Below, piece by piece: positions 44,906-56,198 of a stretch of DNA of 64,000 nucleotides. The stretch is from Bradyrhizobium ontarionense (GTDB lineage Bacteria > Pseudomonadota > Alphaproteobacteria > Rhizobiales > Xanthobacteraceae): positions 372,001 through 436,000 of the forward strand of contig NZ_CP088156.1 of NCBI RefSeq assembly GCF_021088345.1, in the 5' to 3' direction. Position 1 is the first letter of the stretch; each line of letters opens with the position of its first letter. A model generated the notes under the pieces. That model searched no databases and was not told where the DNA came from. It saw only the letters and a list, made by a program, of their open reading frames with translations. The translations under genes and the position numbers were made by a program.

Positions 44906-46207
44906 ATGACCCCCGCCGCCCGGCTGTCCGCCGCCATCGACATCATCGAGTCCATCGAAGCCCAGCGGGCGCCGGCGGCCAAGGCCCTCAAGGACTGGGG
45001 CACCAGTCATCGCTTCGCCGGCTCCGGCGACCGCGCCGCTATCGCCGGCCTGGTCTGGGACGTGCTGCGCCGCCGCGCCTCCAGCGCCTATGTGATGGAG
45101 GACGATACGGCGCGGGCGCGCGTGCTCGGCATGCTCAAGCTCGAGCGCGGCCTCGATGTTGCGACCATCGCCGCGATGTGCGACGGCAGCCGCTTCGCGC
45201 CGCCGCCGCTCACCGCCCAGGAGGAGAGCGCGCTCGCCTCGCGCACCACCGCCGGCGCGCCGCCGCCCGTCGCCGGCGACTATCCCGATTGGCTCGACCC
45301 GTATCTCGCCGCCGTATTCGGCGACGACCGCGTCGCCGAGGCCATGGCGATGGCCAGCCGCGCGCCGCTCGATCTGCGCGTCAACACGCTGAAGGCCAAG
45401 CGCGAGAAGGTGCAGGCCTCGCTCAAGCATCTCGGCGCCGTGCCGACGCCGTGGTCGCCGCTGGGCTTGCGCATCGCGCTCGGGGCCGACGCGCGCAATC
45501 CCGGCGTTCATGCCGAGGAGGATTTCATCAAGGGTGCGGTTGAAGTCCAGGACGAGGGCTCGCAGCTCGCGGCGCTGTTCACCGCGGCCAAGCCCGGCGA
45601 GCAGGTCATCGATCTCTGCGCCGGCGCCGGCGGCAAGACCCTGGCGCTGGCGGCGATGATGGGCGGCAAGGGCCGGCTGATCGCGACCGACCACGACAAG
45701 CGCCAGCTCGCGCCCATCCACGAGCGGCTGTCGCGCGCCGGCGTCCACAATGCCGATGTGCGCAGCCCGAAGGGCGACGCCGACCCGCTCGCCGACATCA
45801 GGGCGTCGGCCGATCTGGTCGTGATCGACGCTCCCTGCACGGGCACCGGCACCTGGCGCCGCAACCCCGACGCCAAATGGCGCATGCGCCCCGGCGCGCT
45901 CGAGATCCGCCTGAAGGACCAGGCCGAAGTGCTTGATCGCGCGGCATCCCTGGTCAAGCCCGGCGGCCGCATCGCCTACATCACCTGCTCGGTGCTGCAC
46001 CCGGAGAACGGCGACCAGGTCCGCGCCTTCATCGCCCGCCACCCGGCGTTTGCCATCCAGCCCCCCGATCAGACCGCCACCGTCCTCTGGGACAAGGCCG
46101 AGGCCTTCGCCGAGGCAGCGCTGAAGTCGGACGAGGGCTGGCTGATGACCCCCCGCCGGACGGGGACCGACGGGTTCTTCGTGTCGGTGCTGAAGAAGCA
46201 GGCCTAA
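44906..46207 (+). CDS. RsmB/NOP family 16S rRNA cytosine-5 methyltransferase
   Basis: The 433-residue protein has an N-terminal NusB-like helical domain (about 1-135) and a SAM methyltransferase domain: motif I DLCAGAGGKTLALAAMMGG, motif IV VIDAPCTGTGTWRRNPD with one catalytic Cys and motif VI ITCSVLHPENGDQ with the second. It should make 5-methylcytosine in 16S rRNA (C967-type), although the alphaproteobacterial target may differ. ATG 44906 follows the MAPEG stop by 16 bases. The longer frame upstream lies inside MAPEG. Confidence 0.9.
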   Translation: MTPAARLSAAIDIIESIEAQRAPAAKALKDWGTSHRFAGSGDRAAIAGLVWDVLRRRASSAYVMEDDTARARVLGMLKLERGLDVATIAAMCDGSRFAPPPLTAQEESALASRTTAGAPPPVAGDYPDWLDPYLAAVFGDDRVAEAMAMASRAPLDLRVNTLKAKREKVQASLKHLGAVPTPWSPLGLRIALGADARNPGVHAEEDFIKGAVEVQDEGSQLAALFTAAKPGEQVIDLCAGAGGKTLALAAMMGGKGRLIATDHDKRQLAPIHERLSRAGVHNADVRSPKGDADPLADIRASADLVVIDAPCTGTGTWRRNPDAKWRMRPGALEIRLKDQAEVLDRAASLVKPGGRIAYITCSVLHPENGDQVRAFIARHPAFAIQPPDQTATVLWDKAEAFAEAALKSDEGWLMTPRRTGTDGFFVSVLKKQA

Positions 46208-46221
46208 GCCCCACCCACCGC

Positions 46222-46297
46222 CGTCATTGCGAGCGAAGCGAAGCAATCCAGGGCTGCGCGCGGCACTCTGGATTGCTTCGCTTCGCTCGCAATGACG
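46222..46297. repeat. palindromic intergenic repeat, family B
   Basis: A 76-bp copy with ends CGTCATTGCGAGCGAAGCG and CGCTTCGCTCGCAATGACG, among the most symmetric copies in the window. Arms AAGCAATCCAG / CTGGATTGCTT continue inside. It follows the methyltransferase stop and could be its 3' hairpin. Confidence 0.85.
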
Positions 46298-46322
46298 GGG
46301 TAGGCGGCCGTGATCCTCTCCG

Positions 46323-46516
46323 CTGTCGTCCCGGGCAAGCCCCTCGCGCGCAGCGCGTGGGGCGCCGACCCGGGACCCAAACGCCGCGGCCGTCGTGAGG
46401 CGCGAGCTGGAGCGGCCAGCGTGCCCCGACCCGCATCCTGTGGTTATGGATCCCGGCTCGGCGCGGACCGGCGCAATGCTTGCGCATTGCCCCAGTCCGC
46501 TTGGCCGGGACGACAG
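46323..46516. repeat. long palindromic repeat, family G (CTGTCGTCCCGGG type)
   Basis: About 194 bp. Ends CTGTCGTCCCGGGCAAGC and GGCCGGGACGACAG pair, with inner stems CGCGCAGCGCG and GCGCAATGCTTGCGC. With the family B repeat it occupies nearly all of the 386 bases before guaA, so the guaA promoter must lie within or just after it. Confidence 0.75.
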
Positions 46517-46593
46517 CGGTGGGTGACGACGCACCGGTGAATCGCCCGCTTGCAAGGGTTGCGAGTCCTCCCGCCTCGGCGTAATTGCTTGCC

Positions 46594-48213
46594 ATGACAG
46601 CCCAAGACAACTTCCCCCCCAAATCCCCCGACACATCCGCCGGCCAGGACCTCTCCGTGGCCGCGCTCCACGACAAGATCCTGATCGTCGATTTCGGCAG
46701 CCAGGTCACGCAGCTGATCGCGCGCCGGGTGCGCGAGGACGGCGTGTATTGCGAGATCGTGCCGTTCCAGAAGGCGGAGGCCGCCTTCCGCGAGATGCAG
46801 CCGAAGGCCGTGATCCTGTCCGGCGGGCCGGGATCGGTCCATGAGGAAGGCTCGCCGCGCGCGCCGCAGCTGATCTTCGAGTCCGGCGTGCCCGTGCTCG
46901 GCATCTGCTACGGCCAGATGACCTTGGCCGCCCAGCTCGGCGGCACCGTCGAGGGCGGCCACCACCGCGAGTTCGGCCGTGCCGACGTCGAGGTCAAGAC
47001 GACGAGCCGCCTGTTCGAGGGCGTCTGGCAGACCGGCGAGCAGCACCAGGTGTGGATGAGCCATGGCGACCGCATCACGCAGATGCCGCCGGGCTTCTCG
47101 GTGGCCGGCGTCTCGCCGAACGCGCCGTTCGCCGTGATCCAGGACGAGGCGCGCAGATATTACGGCCTGATGTTCCACCCCGAGGTGGTGCACACGCCCG
47201 ACGGCGCCAAGCTGATCCGCAACTTCGTCCGCAACATCGCCGGCCTCGGCGGCGACTGGACCATGCACGCCTTCCGCGCGGAGGAGATCAAGAAGATCCG
47301 CGCGCAGGTGGGCAAGGGCAAGGTGATCTGCGGCCTCTCCGGCGGCGTCGATTCGGCCGTCGCCGCCGTGCTGATCCACGAGGCGATCGGCGACCAGCTC
47401 ACCTGCGTGTTCGTCGATCACGGCCTCTTGCGTCTCAACGAGGCCGAGACCGTCGTCGATCTGTTCCGGCACCACTACAACATCCCGCTGGTGCATGTGG
47501 ACGCCTCAAAACTGTTCCTCGGCGAACTCGCAGGCGTCACCGACCCCGAGCAGAAGCGCAAGACCATCGGCAAACTCTTCATCGACGTGTTCGATGCCGA
47601 GGCGAAGAAGATCGGCGGCGCCGATTTCCTGGCGCAAGGCACGCTCTATCCCGACGTGATCGAGAGCGTCTCCTTCACGGGCGGGCCCTCGGTGACCATC
47701 AAGTCGCACCACAATGTCGGCGGTCTCCCTGCGCGCATGAACATGAAGCTGGTCGAGCCGCTGCGCGAATTGTTCAAGGACGAGGTCCGCGTGCTCGGCC
47801 GCGAGCTCGGCCTTCCCGACGTGTTCGTCGGCCGCCACCCGTTCCCGGGCCCCGGCCTCGCCATCCGCTGCCCCGGCGAGATCACCGTCGACAAGCTCGA
47901 CATCCTGCGCAAGGCCGACGCCATCTACATCGACGAGATCCGCAAGGCCGGCCTCTACGACACCATCTGGCAGGCTTTTGCGGTGCTGCTCCCGGTCAAG
48001 ACCGTCGGCGTCATGGGCGACGGCCGCACCTACGACTACGTCGTGGGCCTGCGCGCGGTGACTTCGACGGACGGCATGACGGCGGATTTCTATCCGTTCG
48101 ACATGAAGTTTTTGGGCAATACGGCCACGCGCATCATCAACGAGGTGAAGGGCGTGAATCGGGTGGTGTATGACGTGACGAGCAAGCCGCCGGGGACGAT
48201 TGAGTGGGAGTAA
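46594..48213 (+). CDS. guaA: GMP synthase (glutamine-hydrolysing)
   Basis: The 539-residue enzyme converts XMP to GMP using glutamine and ATP. The N-terminal class I amidotransferase domain has [20 protein letters not shown], the nucleophile Cys in VLGICYGQM, and His/Glu in [10 protein letters not shown]. The ATP pyrophosphatase domain has the [15 protein letters not shown]-loop, and the C-terminal dimerisation domain ends in the universally conserved [11 protein letters not shown] 46594 gives a short non-conserved leader of about 20 residues. Its 3' end (GATTGAGTGGGAG) borders the low-GC defence island. Confidence 0.97.
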
Positions 48214-48288
48214 ATCAAGCTAAAATCTGCTAGCAGTTCTGTAAACTATTCTGGATATGCCTATCTACCCCAAGGGATGAGGAAACGA

Positions 48289-50010
48289 ATGGACCAACTG
48301 CCGGCTGATTCTGAACGTGCACTGCCGCCCGGTTGGGTTTCTGTCCGCGTCGATCAGGTGGGCGAGGTACGGCTGGGTCGACAACGGTCGCCTGACCAGG
48401 AATCTGGTGCATATATGACCAGATACGTTCGTGCAGCTAACATAACTCCCGCTGGCATGAACATCTCAAATCTTCTTGAGATGAACTTCACGCCAGCTGA
48501 GCGCGAGGCGTTCGGTCTTAAGCCGGGTGACGTTTTGCTAACCGAGGCGTCGGGCAGTGCCTCTCAAGTTGGAAGAGCCTCGATTTGGCGCGGCGAAGTC
48601 GAGCCATGCTGCTTTCAAAATACAGTGATCCGGTTTCGCCCGCATCTGACGACCTCTGAATACGCGCTCGTCGTCTTTCGGCACTATGCGGCGGCTGGCG
48701 TGTTCGCAGGCGTAGCGCGGGGTGTGGGCATTCAGCATTTGGGCGGCTCGCGTTTCGCTGAGATTCTTTATCCGTTGCCGCCGCTGGCTGAGCAGAAGCG
48801 GATAACTGAGGTCGTCGACGTACGTCTAGCCAACATCAGAGAAGCGGAAGCTCGTCTTCGGTCTGCGCTTGGACATCTGAAAGAGCAGGTGCGCGAGATC
48901 TTAGCGGCGGCCGCAGCTGGCGAACTGGTGCCGCAATCGCCGCAGGCGGCTGAACCGGACCGAGCTCATGCGTCGTCAAGATCGAGGCAGATTAGCCTCT
49001 TCGAGAATGAGGCAGTATCCGCCCAGAAAGTCCTGGGACTTGGCGGTACTGTGCCGGAAGGATGGCGATGGTGTCGTGTCGAGCAGGCTGGACAAGTTAC
49101 ATTGGGGCGACAGCGCGCGCCGAAGCACGAGCGGGGGCATAATATGCGACCCTATCTTCGCGTGGCAAATGTCTACGAAGACAGGATTGACACGTCCGAC
49201 GTTCTCCACATGAACTTTGAGCCGGAGGAAGTCGCCATCTACGAGCTGCGGGACGGCGATGTTCTTCTCAATGAAGGGCAGAGCCCGGAACTAGTTGGTC
49301 GTCCAGCGATTTACCGTGGAGAGGTGCCGGGAGCGTGTTTTCAGAATACCCTGATCCGCTTCCGTTCCGGCGACGAGATTGAGCCGGAATATGCGCTATT
49401 CGTATTTCGTCACTACATGCATTCGGGGGTATTTCGTAAGATTGCGCGATGGTCGACAAACATTGCTCATCTAGGATTGGAGCGGTTTAGATCTCTTCCA
49501 TTTCCAATACCCCCCCGTGGTGAACAACGGCGTATTGTCGCCGAAGCTCGTCGCCGACTTGAGGCTGCGGCTTCCCAGATGCTAGCCATTGAAGCCTCGC
49601 TTGCGCGAGTGCCCGAGTTTGAGCGAGAATTGTTGGCGGCAGCGGTGGCAGGCGACTTAGTGCCGCAAGACCCAGGCGACGAGCCGGCAAGCGAGCTGTT
49701 CCGGCGGCTGGGTCCCCCACGCAAGACCGAAGCGACATTACCCCAGTCGAGTCTAAGAGCCGATATTATGTCAAAGAGACGCCCTCGCCCGACGCAGCAA
49801 GCTGAACCGACACCTGACTTGGCGGCTGTGTTGCAGAAACACGGTGGATCTTTGCCTATGCCAGAGCTATTTGCACAGGCAGGGTACAATCGTGACCTGC
49901 CCGAACACGTCGAACTCTTCTATCTCGCACTGCGTAAGGCGCTCGGAAAAACTATTCGTTTGACAGGTGAGTCTGCAGAGAACGCGGAACTTGAGGCCAA
50001 TGCGGCTTAA
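48289..50010 (+). CDS. hsdS: Type I restriction-modification specificity subunit (HsdS), internally duplicated
   Basis: The 573-residue protein selects the DNA site for a Type I methylase. Two target recognition domains are visible, TRD1 (about 15-167) and TRD2 (about 257-409), each followed by a helical spacer (168-215; 410-462). The two halves are strikingly alike (LGRQR, MNF, GDVLL, VGR, RGEV, CFQNT, IRFR, FRHY, HLG and EQ-RI recur in order; spacers end LAAAAAGELVPQ and LAAAVAGDLVPQ). A C-terminal extension (about 505-560, LQKHGGSLPMPELFAQAG) looks like a small winged-helix-type unit absent from minimal HsdS. ATG 48289 has GAGG at the right spacing. ATG 48277 lacks one. It is first of a coupled operon. 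Confidence 0.92.
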   Translation: MDQLPADSERALPPGWVSVRVDQVGEVRLGRQRSPDQESGAYMTRYVRAANITPAGMNISNLLEMNFTPAEREAFGLKPGDVLLTEASGSASQVGRASIWRGEVEPCCFQNTVIRFRPHLTTSEYALVVFRHYAAAGVFAGVARGVGIQHLGGSRFAEILYPLPPLAEQKRITEVVDVRLANIREAEARLRSALGHLKEQVREILAAAAAGELVPQSPQAAEPDRAHASSRSRQISLFENEAVSAQKVLGLGGTVPEGWRWCRVEQAGQVTLGRQRAPKHERGHNMRPYLRVANVYEDRIDTSDVLHMNFEPEEVAIYELRDGDVLLNEGQSPELVGRPAIYRGEVPGACFQNTLIRFRSGDEIEPEYALFVFRHYMHSGVFRKIARWSTNIAHLGLERFRSLPFPIPPRGEQRRIVAEARRRLEAAASQMLAIEASLARVPEFERELLAAAVAGDLVPQDPGDEPASELFRRLGPPRKTEATLPQSSLRADIMSKRRPRPTQQAEPTPDLAAVLQKHGGSLPMPELFAQAGYNRDLPEHVELFYLALRKALGKTIRLTGESAENAELEANAA

Positions 50011-51610
50011 CACCGTCAGGATCGGCTCGTTCAAGAATCTACGAGATCTTTCCGTCGATTTTGACGAAAGGTCGTCCTACACTGTTCTCGTCGGTGAGAA
50101 TGGCGCAGGAAAGTCAAACCTGATTGAAGCGTTGACGCTAATCTTCCGTAATCTCGATCTCGATGTTGAAGCGCCGTTTGATTACGACCTGAATTACGAG
50201 TGCCGCGAAAGCCATATTGAGATCCGCGCCAAAGCGGACGAGTTTCCGACCTTCCGGATCAAACGGGCGGGGGAGACTGAGTATGGTGAACTTCCTCGTA
50301 AGACCTTTATGACAGAGGATCGAAATGGTCGCCCGCACTATCGTCCGGCATTTGTGTTTGGGTATTACTCTGGCCCAAGCGATCGCTTGGCAGTTATATT
50401 CGAGAGGCATCGCGAACGATTTTATAGCTGGATCATAAAATCACCTGAACAGCGAGGAAAGGCGATCAGTGACCCGAATGCGTTGCGGCGTCTCTTCTAT
50501 GCCCAGACGTTGCACGGGCAGTTCGCCCTAATTGCGTTCTTTATGGAGGCTAGCGACGCCTCGAAGGAAGATCGCGATTTCCTTCGCGAGCATCTTCAAA
50601 TCGAGGGTCTAGATAGCGTGCTCTTCGCTCTAAAAGAGCCCCCTTGGAAGCGCAAGGGCGGAGATCCTAGGTTCTGGAATGCGGTCGGAGAAGTCCAGCA
50701 GTTTCTCAGTCGGCTATATCAACAAGCGATGCTTCCCCTACGTATGCCGCGGCGCATTCCAGTCGATTTGACAAAGAATCCCATCGTCCAGAGTCTCTAT
50801 CTGTTTCTGTCTAGCGCCGAGGCGCTCGCGGATGTGTACCGTTCATATGGTGACCAGTATGCTTTTTTCACGGCGCTTGAGAGTATGCACCTGTCCAAGG
50901 TGTTAGCCGAGGTCCGTACGCGCGTCAAAATGAGCGCGGGGGCAGGAGGCGGAAACGTCACGTACCGCGACCTGAGTGAGGGCGAGCAGCAGTTGCTGTT
51001 GGTTCTTGGCTTGTTGAAATTCACAGCCCGAGACGAAGCTTTGTTTCTGCTTGACGAACCAGATACCCATCTCAACCCAGCTTGGAGTACGCAGTACCTA
51101 GCTTTCTTAGATCGTTTCATTAAAGGTCGTGATAGCTGCCACATTGTGATGTCTTCGCATGATCCGCTCGTATTTGCTGGGCTTGAGCGGGCCCAGGTGC
51201 GGATTTTCAGGCGGGACGACAAGGGACGCGCTGTTGCGGAGCTACCCGAACAAGATCCGCGAGGGATGGGTGTCGCAGCGATCCTGACCAGTGATCTCTT
51301 TCGCCTTAAGACAACACTCGATACCAAGACTCAGGCTGCCTTGGATCGTCAGCGCGTGCTCGCCATGAAAGAGTCGCTGACGCCGGAAGAGGAGGCTGAG
51401 CTTGGCCGGATTAGAGATGACCTGCGCGGCCGAGGCTTTGACTTCACAATTCGGGATCCTCTCTATCAGGAGTTTCTGAAAGCGTGGACCGCGCAGGAAG
51501 ATCCAGCTTGGCGCGATGTGGTAGAGTTGACGCCTAAGCAGCGCGCGGCTCGAGGGAAGCTAGCAGCGCGGATCGTAGAAGAACTGCGTCGGGAGGCGGG
51601 TGGATCCTGA
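50000..51610 (+). CDS. Septu PtuA-like AAA/ABC-type ATPase
   Basis: The 536-residue protein has an SMC/ABC-like ATPase head: an N-terminal IGSFKNLRDLSVDF strand, Walker A GENGAGKS (32-39), a long insertion (about 60-310), the ABC signature LSEGEQQ (325-331), Walker B LFLLDEPDTHLNP (348-360) and switch His in SSHDP (385-389). The C-terminal 150 residues are charged and helical. With an HNH gene five bases downstream this is the Septu (PtuA-PtuB) pairing, in which the ATPase controls the nuclease. It overlaps hsdS by 11 bases. OLD-family or RecF-like ATPases are alternatives, but no TOPRIM domain is seen. Confidence 0.8.
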   Translation: MRLNTVRIGSFKNLRDLSVDFDERSSYTVLVGENGAGKSNLIEALTLIFRNLDLDVEAPFDYDLNYECRESHIEIRAKADEFPTFRIKRAGETEYGELPRKTFMTEDRNGRPHYRPAFVFGYYSGPSDRLAVIFERHRERFYSWIIKSPEQRGKAISDPNALRRLFYAQTLHGQFALIAFFMEASDASKEDRDFLREHLQIEGLDSVLFALKEPPWKRKGGDPRFWNAVGEVQQFLSRLYQQAMLPLRMPRRIPVDLTKNPIVQSLYLFLSSAEALADVYRSYGDQYAFFTALESMHLSKVLAEVRTRVKMSAGAGGGNVTYRDLSEGEQQLLLVLGLLKFTARDEALFLLDEPDTHLNPAWSTQYLAFLDRFIKGRDSCHIVMSSHDPLVFAGLERAQVRIFRRDDKGRAVAELPEQDPRGMGVAAILTSDLFRLKTTLDTKTQAALDRQRVLAMKESLTPEEEAELGRIRDDLRGRGFDFTIRDPLYQEFLKAWTAQEDPAWRDVVELTPKQRAARGKLAARIVEELRREAGGS

Positions 51611-51615
51611 TAGAT

Positions 51616-52458
51616 ATGCGGTTCATCGATCTTGAAGCCATCCTTCCGAAAATTCGGAGCCTTCTATCGGACCTGCAGATCGCGCAGGACGCGACCCTCG
51701 CGGAGCCGGACCCCAAGCGCCGCGCGCGGATTATTGAGGCCAATCAACAAAGTTGGACGGCTCTTCGAGAGGCATTTGAGCAGGCTTCGTCTGACAAATG
51801 CTGGTACACAGAGTGCAAGTGTCCCGGCGCAGAGAATGACATCGATCACTTCCGTCCCAAGGGAAAGGTACGCGAGGATCGGACCCATCCGGGTTATTAC
51901 TGGTTGGCATTCGATTGGAGAAACATGCGGCTGAGTTGTCAGCGGGCCAACCGACCACGCATCGCTCCTGGCACACGTATCGCCGGGGGAAAATCCACTC
52001 ACTTTCCACTTTTGCCGACGGGAATTCGGGCTCGGGGACCTAGTGACGATCTTGCTCTGGAGCATCCTGCCCTTCTTGATCCGACGGACCCCGGTGATCC
52101 CATCCTTCTGACGTTTAGGCCGAATGGGGAGGTTGACCTGTCTCCAGAGTTCCGAGGCAACGCGGTCGCGGAGGCGAAAATTGAGGCGAGCCGACTCGGT
52201 CTGCACTTGAATTGGCCGAAGTTTGTCGAGGGACGTTTAACGCTCTACAATCTCGTAGAGCGAGCAATAGAACGTGGATGCCGAGAGGCGCCGGTTAATT
52301 TCGAAGGTTGGCCAACGGCTAGCGAAGCGTTCAAGGATGCTATCCGCGACCTCAAGAACTACATGGACCCGCGGGCCGAGTACTCGGCCGCGGCCAAAGT
52401 TTACGTTGAGTCGTTCAGGAATGTTTGGTGGGTAAACGACGTGGTTCTAAGGCTTTGA
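51616..52458 (+). CDS. PtuB-like HNH endonuclease
   Basis: The 280-residue protein has an HNH (beta-beta-alpha metal) core: KCWYTECK (61-68), NDIDHFRPKG (74-83) with the catalytic Asp77-His78 pair, and WLAFDWRNMRLSCQRAN (96-112) giving Asn103 and Asn112. The usual two CxxC zinc knuckles are altered: the first is C-x4-C and the second C-x2-A, so zinc binding may be weak or differently built. A GGKSTHFPLLP motif follows, as in HNH partners of Septu-type ATPases. It should cut nucleic acid, probably under control of the ATPase. Spacing to both neighbours is five bases and one base. Confidence 0.78.
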   Translation: MRFIDLEAILPKIRSLLSDLQIAQDATLAEPDPKRRARIIEANQQSWTALREAFEQASSDKCWYTECKCPGAENDIDHFRPKGKVREDRTHPGYYWLAFDWRNMRLSCQRANRPRIAPGTRIAGGKSTHFPLLPTGIRARGPSDDLALEHPALLDPTDPGDPILLTFRPNGEVDLSPEFRGNAVAEAKIEASRLGLHLNWPKFVEGRLTLYNLVERAIERGCREAPVNFEGWPTASEAFKDAIRDLKNYMDPRAEYSAAAKVYVESFRNVWWVNDVVLRL

Positions 52459-52459
52459 A

Positions 52460-53905
52460 ATGACGGACACGAGCGCGCCTGGCGCACAGGCCTTAGTGCG
52501 GAAGCTCTGGCATTATTGTAACGTGTTGCGAGACGACGGTCTTTCGTACCCGGATTATGTCGAGCAGTTGACGTATCTACTATTCTTGAAAATGGCTGAC
52601 GAGCAAGCCGACCGGGCCATACCAAGCAAATATTGTTGGCGTTCCCTAGTTCGCCTAGAGCCGGACGAGATGCACGCGCACTACGGCCGCATTCTATCGG
52701 CGCTCGGTGGGCGCAAGGGTATGCTTGGATTGATCTTCGGCAATGCAAAAAACAAAATTCGAGATCCGGGGAAGTTGCGCTTACTGATCGTCGACCTCAT
52801 TGGTCAAACGGAATGGACGGGGTTGTCGGATGATCTGAAGGGTGACGCCTACGAGGGCTTGCTTGAAAAGAACGCGCGGGACACCAAAAGCGGAGCGGGG
52901 CAGTATTTCACGCCACGTCCTCTCATTGAAGCTATTGTTCAATGTGTGAACCCGCAGCTAGGGGAGATGATCTGCGATCCGGCGTGCGGAACGGCGGGAT
53001 TCCTTTTAGTAGCTCATGATTACCTGCGGAAGAGCAATCCGAAGATGACGGCGGCACAGAGGAAAAATCTTGCCACCAGGTCCATTCGCGGAGTGGAGCT
53101 AGTGGAGGAAGTTGCGCGTCTCGCAGCGATGAATCTACTGCTGCATGGCGTCGGCGGTAACGATGAGGATGAATTGCCGATCGAATGTGCGGACAGCCTC
53201 AAGGCACCCCCGGCTCGGCAGTATGACGTCGTGCTTACGAACCCTCCATTTGGAATCAAAGGCAGTGTTACATATTCTAAAGGAAGCTCAACACGTGCTG
53301 AGGACGGCCTGACGATCGTACGGCCCGACTTCTGGGTTCAGAGTGCTAACAAGCAGCTTAACTTTATGCAGCACATTGTGGCCCTTCTGAAACCTGGCGG
53401 GCGGGCTGCAGTGGTTGTTCCAGACAACGTGTTGTTCGAGGGGGGCGCTGCGGCTTCCGTGCGCCGCCGGTTGGTGGAGAACTGCTGTCTCCATACGATT
53501 CTAAAGCTGCCGCCCGGGTTGTTCTATGCTGCAGGTGTAAAGTCGAACGTCATCTTCTTCAGCAAGCCGAAAAAGATTGGGGCAGTTAATAATCAACGTC
53601 TCTGGGTGTACGATCTTCGTTCAGATAAGCGATTTTCACTCCGCACGAGGCCGCTACAGAACGAGGATCTGCGAGAGTTCGTAAGTATGTACTTCGATGC
53701 TGCACGCAAAGATGGCGAGCGAAGCCGTTCATTCGACGTCAAACGTGTGCTGAGCGATCCTGATTGCCGCTTGGATATGACCTGGGGTGATCCTGCCAAT
53801 CGACCGCGAGCACCTGGTCTGGCGCGCTTGGATGAACTTTCGAGATTGGTAGCCGACGATCTTTTGCGTGCACTCGCGTTGATAGCGAAGCCGAACGGGC
53901 AATAA
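52460..53905 (+). CDS. hsdM: Type I restriction-modification DNA methyltransferase subunit (HsdM)
   Basis: The 481-residue N6-adenine methyltransferase has the HsdM N-terminal helical domain (about 8-130, YVEQLTYLLFLKMADE), the QYFTPRPLI motif (148-156), SAM motif I DPACGTAGF (173-181) and the catalytic NPPF (261-264). A PDNVLFEGGAAASVRR segment and a C-terminal helical tail complete it. With HsdS it should form an M2S1 methylase. It starts one base after the HNH stop, with AAGG before it, so it is coupled to that gene. No hsdR follows: a hairpin and repeat DNA come next. The order S-ATPase-HNH-M is not the usual R-M-S. Confidence 0.95.
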   Translation: MTDTSAPGAQALVRKLWHYCNVLRDDGLSYPDYVEQLTYLLFLKMADEQADRAIPSKYCWRSLVRLEPDEMHAHYGRILSALGGRKGMLGLIFGNAKNKIRDPGKLRLLIVDLIGQTEWTGLSDDLKGDAYEGLLEKNARDTKSGAGQYFTPRPLIEAIVQCVNPQLGEMICDPACGTAGFLLVAHDYLRKSNPKMTAAQRKNLATRSIRGVELVEEVARLAAMNLLLHGVGGNDEDELPIECADSLKAPPARQYDVVLTNPPFGIKGSVTYSKGSSTRAEDGLTIVRPDFWVQSANKQLNFMQHIVALLKPGGRAAVVVPDNVLFEGGAAASVRRRLVENCCLHTILKLPPGLFYAAGVKSNVIFFSKPKKIGAVNNQRLWVYDLRSDKRFSLRTRPLQNEDLREFVSMYFDAARKDGERSRSFDVKRVLSDPDCRLDMTWGDPANRPRAPGLARLDELSRLVADDLLRALALIAKPNGQ

Positions 53906-53952
53906 TTCTTCAGCGGAGAATGACCAAAATCTCGGCGTCCATGCAATCTACC

Positions 53953-53997
53953 CGACGGGCAATCTGCGCATGTCGTTCATGCGCAAGTTGCCCGTCG
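53953..53997 (+). terminator. hairpin closing the hsdS-ptuAB-hsdM operon
   Basis: Arms at 53953-53972 (CGACGGGCAATCTGCGCATG) and 53978-53997 pair at 18 of 20 positions around the 5-nt loop TCGTT, 48 bases after the hsdM stop. It lacks a T-run and is probably also the left end of the dispersed repeat that follows. Confidence 0.5.
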
Positions 53998-54500
53998 TGC
54001 CAGTTTGTCGCAGGTATCGTCGCTTGCGTCGTCGGGCAAATCACCTCCACATTTCCGGCCATCCCGGCTCGCTGAAGAGGGACGTTTCGCGATCGTCACG
54101 AGCGTCGAGTTGGGGAGGCGATGGGCGTGTTGCTCTGCAGCCGGGTGTCACAGCCCGTGCCGACGAACGGAGCGAGGCGACGGCGAAATGGTGTGGTCCT
54201 GGCATCGCGGTGCTGATGCCAAGCCGGCGGTGATGATGATCCGCCGGTGACGGGGGCAAGACAGCCGATCCCCGGGGAGAGCGCCTATAACCCGTCAAAC
54301 CGTCGCGCAGGGAAGGCCGGATATTGGGCTGAACCTGTGGTTCTGCCGCGTGCTTTTTGTTGCACGCGGACCGCGGGTATCAGTCGATACCCGGCCTTCC
54401 CTGCGCCTCTTCTTCGGAGGAGAGGTCGACTGATCGCAAAACTCGGGCGCAGGCCGCCGCGAGATGGCTCAGTCATGCCTGCTGTTTGAAACGTGGAGAA
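53953..54500. repeat. Bradyrhizobiaceae dispersed repeat block
   Basis: The series CCCGACGGGCAA, GTCGGGCAAATC, GAGGGACGTTTCGCGATCGT, GTGTGGTCCTGGC, GACGGGGGCAAGACAGCCG, CCCCGGGGAGAGCGC and GCGCAGGGAAGGCCGG matches, from memory, a long repeat common in Bradyrhizobium and Rhodopseudomonas. It includes an inverted pair at 54305-54324 and 54387-54406 (19 of 20 positions). The ends are approximate, and the function is unknown. Confidence 0.65.
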
Positions 54501-54578
54501 AGGGTTTCGTGGCGATGTCCCGCGCTGGTGTGGCGCAGAATCGCCCCATCCACGCGGTCTCACCTATATCGTCAGCCG

Positions 54579-54645
54579 GGTGACGGTGCATGAAATGGCG
54601 GCCGTTGATCCAAATGAGCAGCATACGGTTTAGTGCGCCGTCACC
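54579..54645. repeat. 67-bp MITE-like element, copy 1
   Basis: Terminal arms GGTGACGGTGCA (54579-54590) and TGCGCCGTCACC (54634-54645) are inverted complements at 11 of 12 positions. A second copy of the same length at 58314-58380 is identical at about 55 of 67 positions. A single end-like sequence lies at 61478-61495. Confidence 0.65.
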
Positions 54646-54654
54646 GCAATCAAA

Positions 54655-55305
54655 CTAAGCCGCAGCGATCTTCGGCTTGCGGGCAGGGTCGTTCTCGATC
54701 GAATCCAGGATAGCCTTCAATCCTTTCTCAAAAATACCGTTCAGTTCGTCGAGCGCCAGATGCGGCACGACCTGCCGCGCCAAGGGATAATCGGCGAGAA
54801 AATCCGGATCAGGGAGTTGGAAATCGCTGCGTCGGGTCGCTTCCCGGGTCGCCATCTCCGCCATGCCGGCCCCGTTCATGAAATAGCCGAGGAGGCGGAA
54901 GGCGGCGGCAATGCCGTCCGGCGGCAGGCCCGCGGCACCGAAGATCGAGAACACTTGTTCCAGGATCGGCAGGGTTTCCCGCGAATTGAAGCGCCGCCCC
55001 GCGAGCAGCGGATAGGCCCGCGGATGGGTTCGCGCAATCGCGATATAGCTCCTGGCGATCGTCTCCAGGTCGCCGCGCCAGTTCTCGCTCGGCTCGGGAA
55101 TGACGATCATCGCGGCAAGCCGAGCCGTCACATCGTCAAGCAGCGCATCCTTGCTCGGCACGTAGTGATAGAGCGACATGGCCTGCACGCCGAGGCTCTT
55201 GCCGAGCGCGCGGGTCGAGAGACGGTCCAGCCCGTCCTGTTCGATCAGGTCCAGCGCCTTGTCGATTATGGCGTCGCGGGTCAGGTTCAAGCGCTTGGCG
55301 GTCAC
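54655..55305 (-). CDS. TetR/AcrR family regulator with TetR-type C-terminal domain
   Basis: The 216-residue regulator has an N-terminal HTH (about 10-55; LSTRALGKSLGVQAMSLYHYVPSKDALLD) and a C-terminal domain with FFxxG-like LLGYFMNGAGMAEMAT, resembling the TetR_C_1 group that binds tetracycline-like or other planar ligands. It is divergent from a GNAT gene, and two tandem palindromes (TTACNNNGTAA) lie between them, so autoregulation and control of the GNAT-methyltransferase-hydrolase set is likely. The stop lies nine bases from the MITE-like element. Confidence 0.9.
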   Translation of the reverse strand: MTAKRLNLTRDAIIDKALDLIEQDGLDRLSTRALGKSLGVQAMSLYHYVPSKDALLDDVTARLAAMIVIPEPSENWRGDLETIARSYIAIARTHPRAYPLLAGRRFNSRETLPILEQVFSIFGAAGLPPDGIAAAFRLLGYFMNGAGMAEMATREATRRSDFQLPDPDFLADYPLARQVVPHLALDELNGIFEKGLKAILDSIENDPARKPKIAAA

Positions 55306-55319
55306 TGCAACGCTTCCCC

Positions 55320-55332
55320 TTTACAGCGTAAA
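55320..55332. promoter_or_regulatory. TetR operator candidate 1 (TTTACAGCGTAAA)
   Basis: A 13-bp palindrome with arms TTTAC and GTAAA around AGC, located 15 bases upstream of the TetR start. Its centre is 25 bases from that of the second palindrome. Confidence 0.7.
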
Positions 55333-55344
55333 CTTTTGCTGTAC

Positions 55345-55357
55345 CTTACACTGTAAG
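55345..55357. promoter_or_regulatory. TetR operator candidate 2 (CTTACACTGTAAG)
   Basis: A 13-bp palindrome with arms CTTAC and GTAAG around ACT, ending 19 bases before the GNAT ATG. It shares the TTACANNGTAA core with the first palindrome. Occupancy of both sites would cover both start regions. Confidence 0.7.
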
Positions 55358-55376
55358 AATTTTTGGGGATAGATCA

Positions 55377-56198
55377 ATGGTTGCGATTACGGGCGAACAG
55401 CGGGCAGCCGAAGCCATCGAGGTGAAGGCATGGCAGGACTTGTTGGATGTCATGCCGGCTCAGCTCAAGACCGAGATCGGTGGTGATGGCCGGATCGTCG
55501 GCGGCGCGCTTGTGATCAGCGCCAGGAACGTGCCGCTTGTCACTTTCAACCGCGTGATCGGGCTGGGCCTCGAACGGCCGGTCGAGCGCCACGATCTCAG
55601 AGAGATCGCGCGGCAGATGCGGTCTGCCTCGGCTCCGGTGGCGCAATTGCAGATCGCGCCGTTCGCGCTGTCGTCCGGGTTGGAGGCAGATCTCGCCGAC
55701 GAAGGGTTTGGCCGCGCGCCGACCGTCTGGGCGAAGATGGGCCGCCGTACCGCCCGCCCGCCGGTCTTCGACACCGAATTCACCATCGACTTGGCCGGGC
55801 CAGCGGATGCGGAGCTCTATGCCGATACGGTGCTCGCCGGCTTCGGGATGCCGCGCTCCTTCTCGCCCTGGCTCGCCGCCTTGCCGGGACGGGCGGGCTG
55901 GCGCTGCTATCTCGCGCGCGCGGCGGGCGAGACGCTTGCCGCCGCCGCGCTCTACCTCGACGGCGACAGCGCCTGGCTCGGCATGGCCGCGACACTGCCC
56001 ACGAGCCGCAAACGCGGGGCGCAGAGCGCGCTCATCGCCCGGCGCATCGCCGATGCGGCAGCACTTGGCAAATCCTGGGCGTTCACCGAGACCGGCATCC
56101 TCGACGGCCCGAACCCATCACTCGCCAATATGGAGCGCGCCGGCTTCGAATGCCTGCATGAGCGGACGAACTGGGTGCTGAAAGGCTGGAGCCGCTGA
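55377..56198 (+). CDS. GNAT family N-acetyltransferase
   Basis: The 273-residue protein has an N-terminal domain (about 1-120) of less clear type and a C-terminal acetyltransferase domain (about 130-270) where LAAAALYLDGDSAWLGMAATLPTSRKRGAQSALIARR carries the acetyl-CoA binding motif A pattern (RKRGAQSAL). The end, ANMERAGFECLHERTNWVLK, is typical of GNAT proteins. The substrate is unknown. Being under a divergent TetR, it may modify a toxic amine or antibiotic. The start is taken from the ATG just after the operator pair. Confidence 0.85.
   Translation: MVAITGEQRAAEAIEVKAWQDLLDVMPAQLKTEIGGDGRIVGGALVISARNVPLVTFNRVIGLGLERPVERHDLREIARQMRSASAPVAQLQIAPFALSSGLEADLADEGFGRAPTVWAKMGRRTARPPVFDTEFTIDLAGPADAELYADTVLAGFGMPRSFSPWLAALPGRAGWRCYLARAAGETLAAAALYLDGDSAWLGMAATLPTSRKRGAQSALIARRIADAAALGKSWAFTETGILDGPNPSLANMERAGFECLHERTNWVLKGWSR

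Follow-up and report, generated by a model that had tools for sequence, protein, structure and literature searches.

The hsdS-ptuA-ptuB-hsdM locus

We analysed a 64,000-nucleotide stretch of the Bradyrhizobium ontarionense genome (positions 372001-436000 of the 8,435,845-base single contig; hereafter the window) for a putative defence operon that joins a type I methylase and its specificity subunit to the two genes of a Septu-type system. An original prediction, made from the letters alone, had placed four closely packed plus-strand genes at 48289-53905 in the order hsdS, ptuA, ptuB and hsdM (S, A, B and M where gene order is meant), and open reading frames, Pfam and PADLOC all bore this out, including the 11-base overlap of hsdS with ptuA and the gaps of 5 bases between ptuA and ptuB and of 1 base between ptuB and hsdM. 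The features of the locus are collected in Table 1.

The motifs expected of the methylase (DPACGTAGF and NPPF) and of the ATPase (GENGAGKS, LSEGEQQ, LFLLDEPDTHL and SSHDP) are intact. PtuA matched the PtuA structure 8ee4 in the PDB (E 2.7e-8), and its Pfam matches are to AAA_21 and AAA_15. PtuB matched no Pfam family, and as a single sequence it had no credible match in the PDB; a PtuB profile found the retron PtuB chains there (best E 1.1e-4, over ~35 positions), and residues H78, N103 and N112 are invariant across 31 alignment rows. An alternative in-frame ATG for hsdS lies at 48277.

Table 1. Features of the hsdS-ptuA-ptuB-hsdM locus, in window coordinates
Feature	Position	Strand	Description	Evidence
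hsdS	48289-50010	+	type I specificity subunit, two target-recognition regions and a C-terminal extension	PF01420 9.5e-12, two stretches; PADLOC Specificity_I 317 bits
HsdS tail, ~75 codons	49774-49998	+	candidate PtuA-docking domain	profile match, reading-frame residues 521-595
ptuA	50000-51610	+	Septu-type ABC ATPase	PADLOC PtuA PDLC00293, 580 bits, 1.5e-174
PtuA C-terminal ~120 residues	51242-51607	+	candidate PtuB-docking region	divergence follows PtuB with the rest of PtuA controlled for
ptuB	51616-52458	+	HNH-type nuclease, DHFRPK ... N ... N core	PADLOC PtuB 206 bits, 2.1e-61
hsdM	52460-53905	+	N6-adenine DNA methylase	PF02384 4.3e-67; N6_Mtase and HsdM_N; PADLOC type I M
Island left boundary	48213-48214		homology with congeners stops at the guaA stop; GC drops here from 66-72% to 53-58%	
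Hairpin directly after the operon	53953-53997		strong hairpin	-38.8 kcal/mol, z -7.85

Conservation of the unit and the place of hsdR

Nineteen distinct relatives of the locus were opened (six on plasmids, five on distinct viral-collection contigs, four in E. coli and four in other genomes), which together with the window gave 20 loci. L058 was dropped, its coordinates and scores being those of L057, and L073-L083 were repeats of the same viral contigs; ptuA of L067 is broken, and only a 451-residue piece of it was used. In 19 of the 20 loci, hsdS lies directly before ptuA, ptuB directly after it, and hsdM either before hsdS or after ptuB, with PtuA identity to the window mostly 32-44% among the conserved loci. 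The twentieth, L066, is decayed and was kept out of the alignments: the small Vibrio anguillarum plasmid that carries it has fragments of hsdR, hsdM, hsdS and ptuA next to IS66 genes, and no ptuB was seen. The original prediction depended on the S-ATPase-HNH-M combination recurring and on the ATPase-HNH pair not being scattered among unrelated genes; the unit does recur, and across the 20 loci (one decayed) this PtuA subfamily was never found away from hsdS or hsdM.

As a control, 17 loci with distant AAA proteins, which are distant ATPases taken from a Walker-type pattern search of genome contigs, were scored, and none showed S or M at ≥50 bits. Two further scans of the viral collection gave no new member, the three distant loci that they added (L084-L086) were negative for all four genes at ≥45 bits, and phages gave no match at 1e-20. 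Among genomes of the order, a search for this PtuA matched 3 of 397; the phylum gave 3 of 398 and a set of relatives 2 of 197. These samples overlap, and each includes the genome of the window. Ten of 5,426 complete E. coli genomes matched at the depth searched; four of these were opened, and the other six are search matches only. The HsdM motifs are intact in all 19 loci compared, and methylation therefore seems to matter. In four loci (L031, L052, L063 and L065) the module has a Fic-family gene close by, no more than a few genes away.

No hsdR lies on either side of the operon in the window, where guaA is upstream as predicted and the other neighbours are TetR, GNAT, methyltransferase and hydrolase genes. 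Genome-wide searches returned five N6_Mtase, seven Methylase_S and four HSDR_N matches, and the four hsdR genes adjoin four other M/S loci at 1.85, 4.85, 5.15 and 5.75 Mb; a spare hsdR elsewhere in the genome, which would have spoken against the original prediction, was thus not found. One of these four genes might serve the window locus in trans, which would make it a complete type I enzyme with PtuAB as an accessory. We consider this very improbable, as each hsdR already adjoins its own M and S and the HsdM of the window shares no more than 24-28% identity with the other four encoded in this genome.

Across the family, hsdR adjoins the unit in six of 20 loci (L053, L055, L057, L059, L062 and the decayed L066). 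It was not found in 12 by a search that covered upstream flanks of 3.7 to ~8 kb with five HsdR queries, plus annotation where present, and that a very distant HsdR may escape; L060 and L087 are undecidable because their contigs end. The adjoining HsdR proteins are dissimilar: that of L062 is 53% identical to the 4.85-Mb HsdR and that of L055 41% identical to the L053 HsdR, while for L057 the value is 29%. The suggestion that the ATPase-HNH pair replaces HsdR therefore does not hold as it was written, and we rejected strict replacement; PtuAB looks like an added effector, tolerant of the presence or absence of hsdR. On the Pseudoalteromonas plasmid of L053, a single row of genes comprises hsdR, an Abi gene, the M-S-A-B unit and another restriction endonuclease gene.

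The HsdS tail and the exchange of parts

In alignments, PtuAB-linked HsdS proteins extend ~70-85 residues past the common HsdS end, and several unlinked HsdS end right after an LLxRIxAERA stretch, at the point where the tail starts in linked HsdS. A tail universal to all linked HsdS, seen when the alignment and the model came from the same sequences, was cut back by a leave-out test in which the model for each held-out tail was built only from tails less than 35% identical to it: the tail was found in 16 of 19 linked HsdS, with scores of 16.4-44.9 bits. Because L087 had been found through its tail, it is no test of whether PtuA implies a tail, and without it the count is 15 of 18. For the window, the match in Table 1 comes from a profile built with the window tail included; the held-out model matched HsdS residues 508-552 (21.5 bits). 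The tail was absent from all 11 HsdS scored that have no PtuAB beside them (maximum 1.3 bits); this genome supplied four of these and plasmid loci seven.

Searches that started from the tail led back to the same loci. The tail profile matched 3 of the 397 genomes of the order, the same three that hold PtuA; those three had contributed to the model, and the informative part is the absence elsewhere, in that a comparable sample has HsdS in 77 of its 199 genomes. In 385 further genomes, probably of the window's own class, there was one unseen tail match (G937), and it proved to be an M-S-A-B locus. A single E. coli tail used as query against plasmids found two records, both PtuAB loci. In a protein collection, the window tail region found 82 proteins, all with an HsdS domain. 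Among the matches listed, at least 24 of 61 tail-bearing HsdS appear to share a contig with PtuA or PtuB, as judged by exactly equal contig size, against a mean of 0.27 and a maximum of 3 in 600 shifts; this count used contigs ≥6 kb and left out the window's own proteins and one PtuB without a contig.

The window tail matched no Pfam domain, and other tails gave scattered weak Pfam matches. Matches of the tail profile in the PDB were short stretches of solenoid and IHF proteins, which we took as chance, and a winged helix was suggested by eye only. Sixteen of 19 loci have an in-frame ATG 70-86 codons before the end of hsdS (L053, L057 and L059 lack it), at 49768 in the window, and a Shine-Dalgarno-like run of at least five precedes it in 4 of the 16, versus 7 of 100 other internal ATGs. 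This is suggestive of a small gene that was fused to hsdS, or that may still be translated separately. In the literature examined, no reference to the tail was found.

Tail identity follows PtuA identity closely (r 0.89 across 19 loci). In partial Mantel tests on these loci, the tail correlated with PtuA given HsdM (r 0.85, 0 of 5000 permutations) and not with HsdM given PtuA (0.02); the HsdS core correlated with HsdM given PtuA (0.55, 0 of 5000). The 16 confirmed tails gave similar values (tail-PtuA 0.86, tail-HsdM 0.03, core-HsdM 0.51), and leaving out single loci kept tail-PtuA at 0.81-0.88. When close loci were collapsed, tail-PtuA was 0.82, 0.70 and 0.64 at 17, 14 and 9 loci and 0.67 at 11 confirmed ones. 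Sliding windows along HsdS divided the protein into conserved parts that track HsdM, recognition regions that track neither HsdM nor PtuA, and the last ~80 residues, which track PtuA. Similarly, the last ~120 residues of PtuA track PtuB given the rest of PtuA (0.49-0.77), with negative values elsewhere in the protein. A general congruence of all parts, which we had considered, had to be toned down, HsdM and PtuB being weakly correlated (r 0.27, 26 of 2000 permutations). The covariation reads as a chain, HsdM - HsdS - tail - PtuA - PtuB, along which neighbouring parts may be matched to one another.

Natural exchanges point to the same joints. E. coli MB06233 has an HsdM 84-88% identical to those of three other E. 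coli loci, with only 13-20% identity in the tail and 43-44% in PtuA; compared with a viral-collection locus, its tail (65%), PtuA (77%) and PtuB (75%) are close and its HsdM (42%) is not. The break falls at the start of the tail, not at the gene edge. Further along, PtuB falls to 27-34% identity between loci whose PtuA (69-78%) and HsdM (84-87%) remain alike, and the PtuA C-terminus diverges alongside: its last windows are 21-53% identical in 4 of 4 shown pairs with an exchanged PtuB and 70-85% in 3 of 3 pairs with the same PtuB. Among L030, L052, L063-L065 and L068, PtuB has been swapped wholesale (27-34% versus 84-95% identity), like nuclease cassettes.

These patterns bear on the simplest alternative, that a self-sufficient Septu merely travels with an orphan type I methylase, with the tail and the covariation produced by DNA linkage and cassette recombination. 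The tail and ptuA are indeed adjacent in the DNA, three linked HsdS have no confirmed tail, and most plasmid HsdM relatives lack this PtuA (142 plasmid records with an HsdM relative, five with this PtuA), so that the association is weak in the converse direction. A two-gene Septu also works alone elsewhere (PMC13096335; here as below, what we cite is drawn from parts of the published texts). Linkage alone sits poorly with the absence of the tail from all HsdS without PtuAB, with the position of the MB06233 break, and with the history of the methylase: PtuAB-linked HsdM do not form one clade (approximately unbiased test, AU, p 9e-58), and six parsimony changes are needed, of which starred branches force at least four, in a quick tree of 29 rows with long branches. 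The union of S-M with PtuAB was therefore kept or remade on several HsdM lineages. We regard independent parts as improbable.

Gene order follows the HsdM lineage, with A-B after S throughout. Eight HsdM relatives without this PtuA were opened. In three of them, all on plasmids, the space between S and M is taken by other cargo, and a DEAD/DEAH helicase gene lies upstream: the insert is DUF262 in Gemmobacter (L106), a hypothetical gene and a HIRAN gene in Rhodococcus (L107) and a GIY-YIG nuclease gene in Streptomyces (L108). In the remaining ones S and M stand side by side or form no neat operon. The position behind hsdS thus reads as a cargo slot, of which PtuAB is likely one of several occupants.

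The module as a whole is best read, from its sequence boundaries, as a mobile island. Alignments with congeners that run through guaA end at 48211-48216 in all nine examined (12 matched), and in the 4-5 kb compared past the guaA stop, a single congener gave a weak match of 169 bases and the others gave none. The GC content of the island is 53-58%, versus 62-72% around it. The downstream side of guaA seems to be a variable site in the genus, homology being lost at the guaA stop in 9/9 congeners examined. After the operon, the original prediction had noted a hairpin and repeats. The hairpin is there, as one of two inverted repeats with 20-base arms (the second at 54305-54406); no direct repeats turned up in 53900-54660. 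The region 46000-56000 contains no Rfam family, and the window no tRNA.

A proposed methylase-controlled Septu effector and its alternatives

Measured against known systems, the locus resembles Septu in its adjacent ABC ATPase and HNH genes and in their PADLOC scores, and differs in the link of the family to hsdS and hsdM and in the tail that most of its HsdS carry. Payne 2021 names two Septu types, I and II, the second with a reverse transcriptase (PMC8565338). PtuA and PtuB also serve as effectors of type I-A retrons (retron-Eco7, Ec78; PMC11555353); here their partner is a methylase, and there is no space for a reverse transcriptase gene, judged by space only, as beyond the four genes no open reading frame longer than 180 amino acids lies between guaA and the TetR gene and no reverse transcriptase model was run. 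The proteins score far from the NCBIfam cut-offs for the retron Ec78-type PtuA and PtuB equivalogs (58.8 of 500 and 25.5 of 150 bits), placing them outside that subtype, and from those for MAD2, MAD3 and MAD5 of MADS (114.6 of 720, 40.7 of 420 and 44 of 400 bits). Type I restriction-modification shares the intact HsdM motifs (DPxxGxxGF and NPPF) and an HsdS with two recognition regions; the window locus departs from it in having no HsdR, with none spare in the genome, and in the HsdS tail. OLD-ABC ATPases coupled with various nucleases have been reported in restriction-modification-like systems (PMC12839542). In the titles and opening lines of abstracts on Septu or PtuAB together with type I restriction, we found no description of an hsdS-ptuA-ptuB-hsdM operon.

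The functional coupling of hsdSM with the ATPase-HNH pair, which the original prediction had put forward, is strengthened by the PtuAB-linked tail and the covariation, both of them evidence from sequence comparison. HsdS, PtuA, PtuB and HsdM are likely coupled as one machine. On balance, we favour a mobile four-gene defence module in which the type I methylase (HsdM with HsdS) would control the Septu effector (PtuA with PtuB). More tentatively, with the odds close to even, HsdS may be a two-sided adaptor: its core would pair with HsdM, and a tail added to it, which may once have been separate, would connect an ABC-ATPase/nuclease effector. A type I methylase would then read DNA sequence and methylation state and relay them to a Septu toxin with no HsdR involved. 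The methylase, the specificity regions, the ATPase and the nuclease would be exchanged as cassettes along the joints, and PtuAB would likely be one of several cargoes in the slot behind hsdS.

In such a module, HsdM and HsdS would methylate a bipartite site in the host genome. PtuA would attach to the HsdS tail and PtuB to the PtuA C-terminus, tying the nuclease to the reader of the methylation site. When incoming DNA presents an unmarked site, the HsdM-HsdS complex would stay engaged, and tail-bound PtuA would change state with ATP and switch PtuB on, without HsdR or beside it where it has been kept. We infer the physical docking, the trigger and the substrate, which may be DNA or tRNA; unmethylated DNA as the trigger is a possibility that we hold with slightly more doubt than the adaptor itself.

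Several observations weigh against this interpretation. The leave-out test did not bear out tail homology in L053 (-1.9 bits), L061 (1.3) and L062 (6.3), even though extensions are present there, and a tail of the common family is thus not needed everywhere; the C-terminal extensions of these three may be another joint to PtuA. With close loci collapsed, tail-HsdM rose to 0.38 (14 loci), 0.42 (9) and 0.53 (11 confirmed), values that stay below tail-PtuA. Adjacency in the DNA, of the tail to ptuA and of the PtuA C-terminus to ptuB, could yield part of the covariation. The loci were gathered mainly through PtuA, so that the constant partnership with S and M applies to this PtuA subfamily. Of the six PtuA plasmids, the search with a single tail recovered no more than two, making absences at that depth weak. 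Finally, because hsdR adjoins some of the loci, PtuAB is not a strict substitute for HsdR.

The strongest competitor takes its cue from PrrC, an ABC-ATPase toxin inside the type I operon EcoprrI (type IC). PtuAB would sit silent on the methylase as a guard until HsdM-HsdS was disturbed by an inhibitor from a phage, either a DNA mimic or an anti-restriction peptide, whereupon the released nuclease would cut tRNA or DNA and abort the infection, HsdR being optional. The PrrC system of K. quasipneumoniae occupies the same slot, in the order HsdR, HsdS, PrrC, HsdM (PMC11555353), which matches R-S-PtuA-PtuB-M of L057 and L059, and PrrC is sequestered in the type I enzyme and released from it (PMC3874165; PMC12707154); this precedent favours a guard. 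So does the report that retron-Eco7 PtuAB degrades tRNA-Tyr (PMC11555353), and Septu EcB88, which requires its Walker and HNH motifs, is likewise said to cleave tRNA-Tyr (PMC13096335). Another Septu reportedly targets nicked DNA (PMC11555353). A guard would also account for loci both with and without hsdR, and the other cargoes between S and M in three near HsdM relatives fit it as well. In contrast to PrrC, the effector here is a two-protein ATPase/HNH pair, hsdR was not found in most loci, and PtuA matches only ATPase-type Pfam families, with none of the anticodon nuclease type. Without hsdR a guarded methylase restricts nothing, yet the HsdM motifs are intact throughout; together with the fast-changing recognition regions, which follow neither HsdM nor PtuA, this suggests that both methylation and the choice of site are in use, and it favours self/non-self reading by the methylase over a pure guard. 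We therefore hold a guard to be unlikely, while giving it clearly more weight than independent parts.

To our knowledge, the signal that activates Septu and the role of HsdM-HsdS pairs without HsdR are both open questions. If HsdS carries a plug for PtuA, the two become testable together, also in E. coli, where ten complete genomes matched. Type I specificity subunits could then steer effectors other than HsdR, and programs that search for defence genes could use the HsdS tail to recognise a class that is at present recorded as two unrelated systems. If this is true, the hsdS-ptuA-ptuB-hsdM module would be a modular, methylation-licensed immune system.

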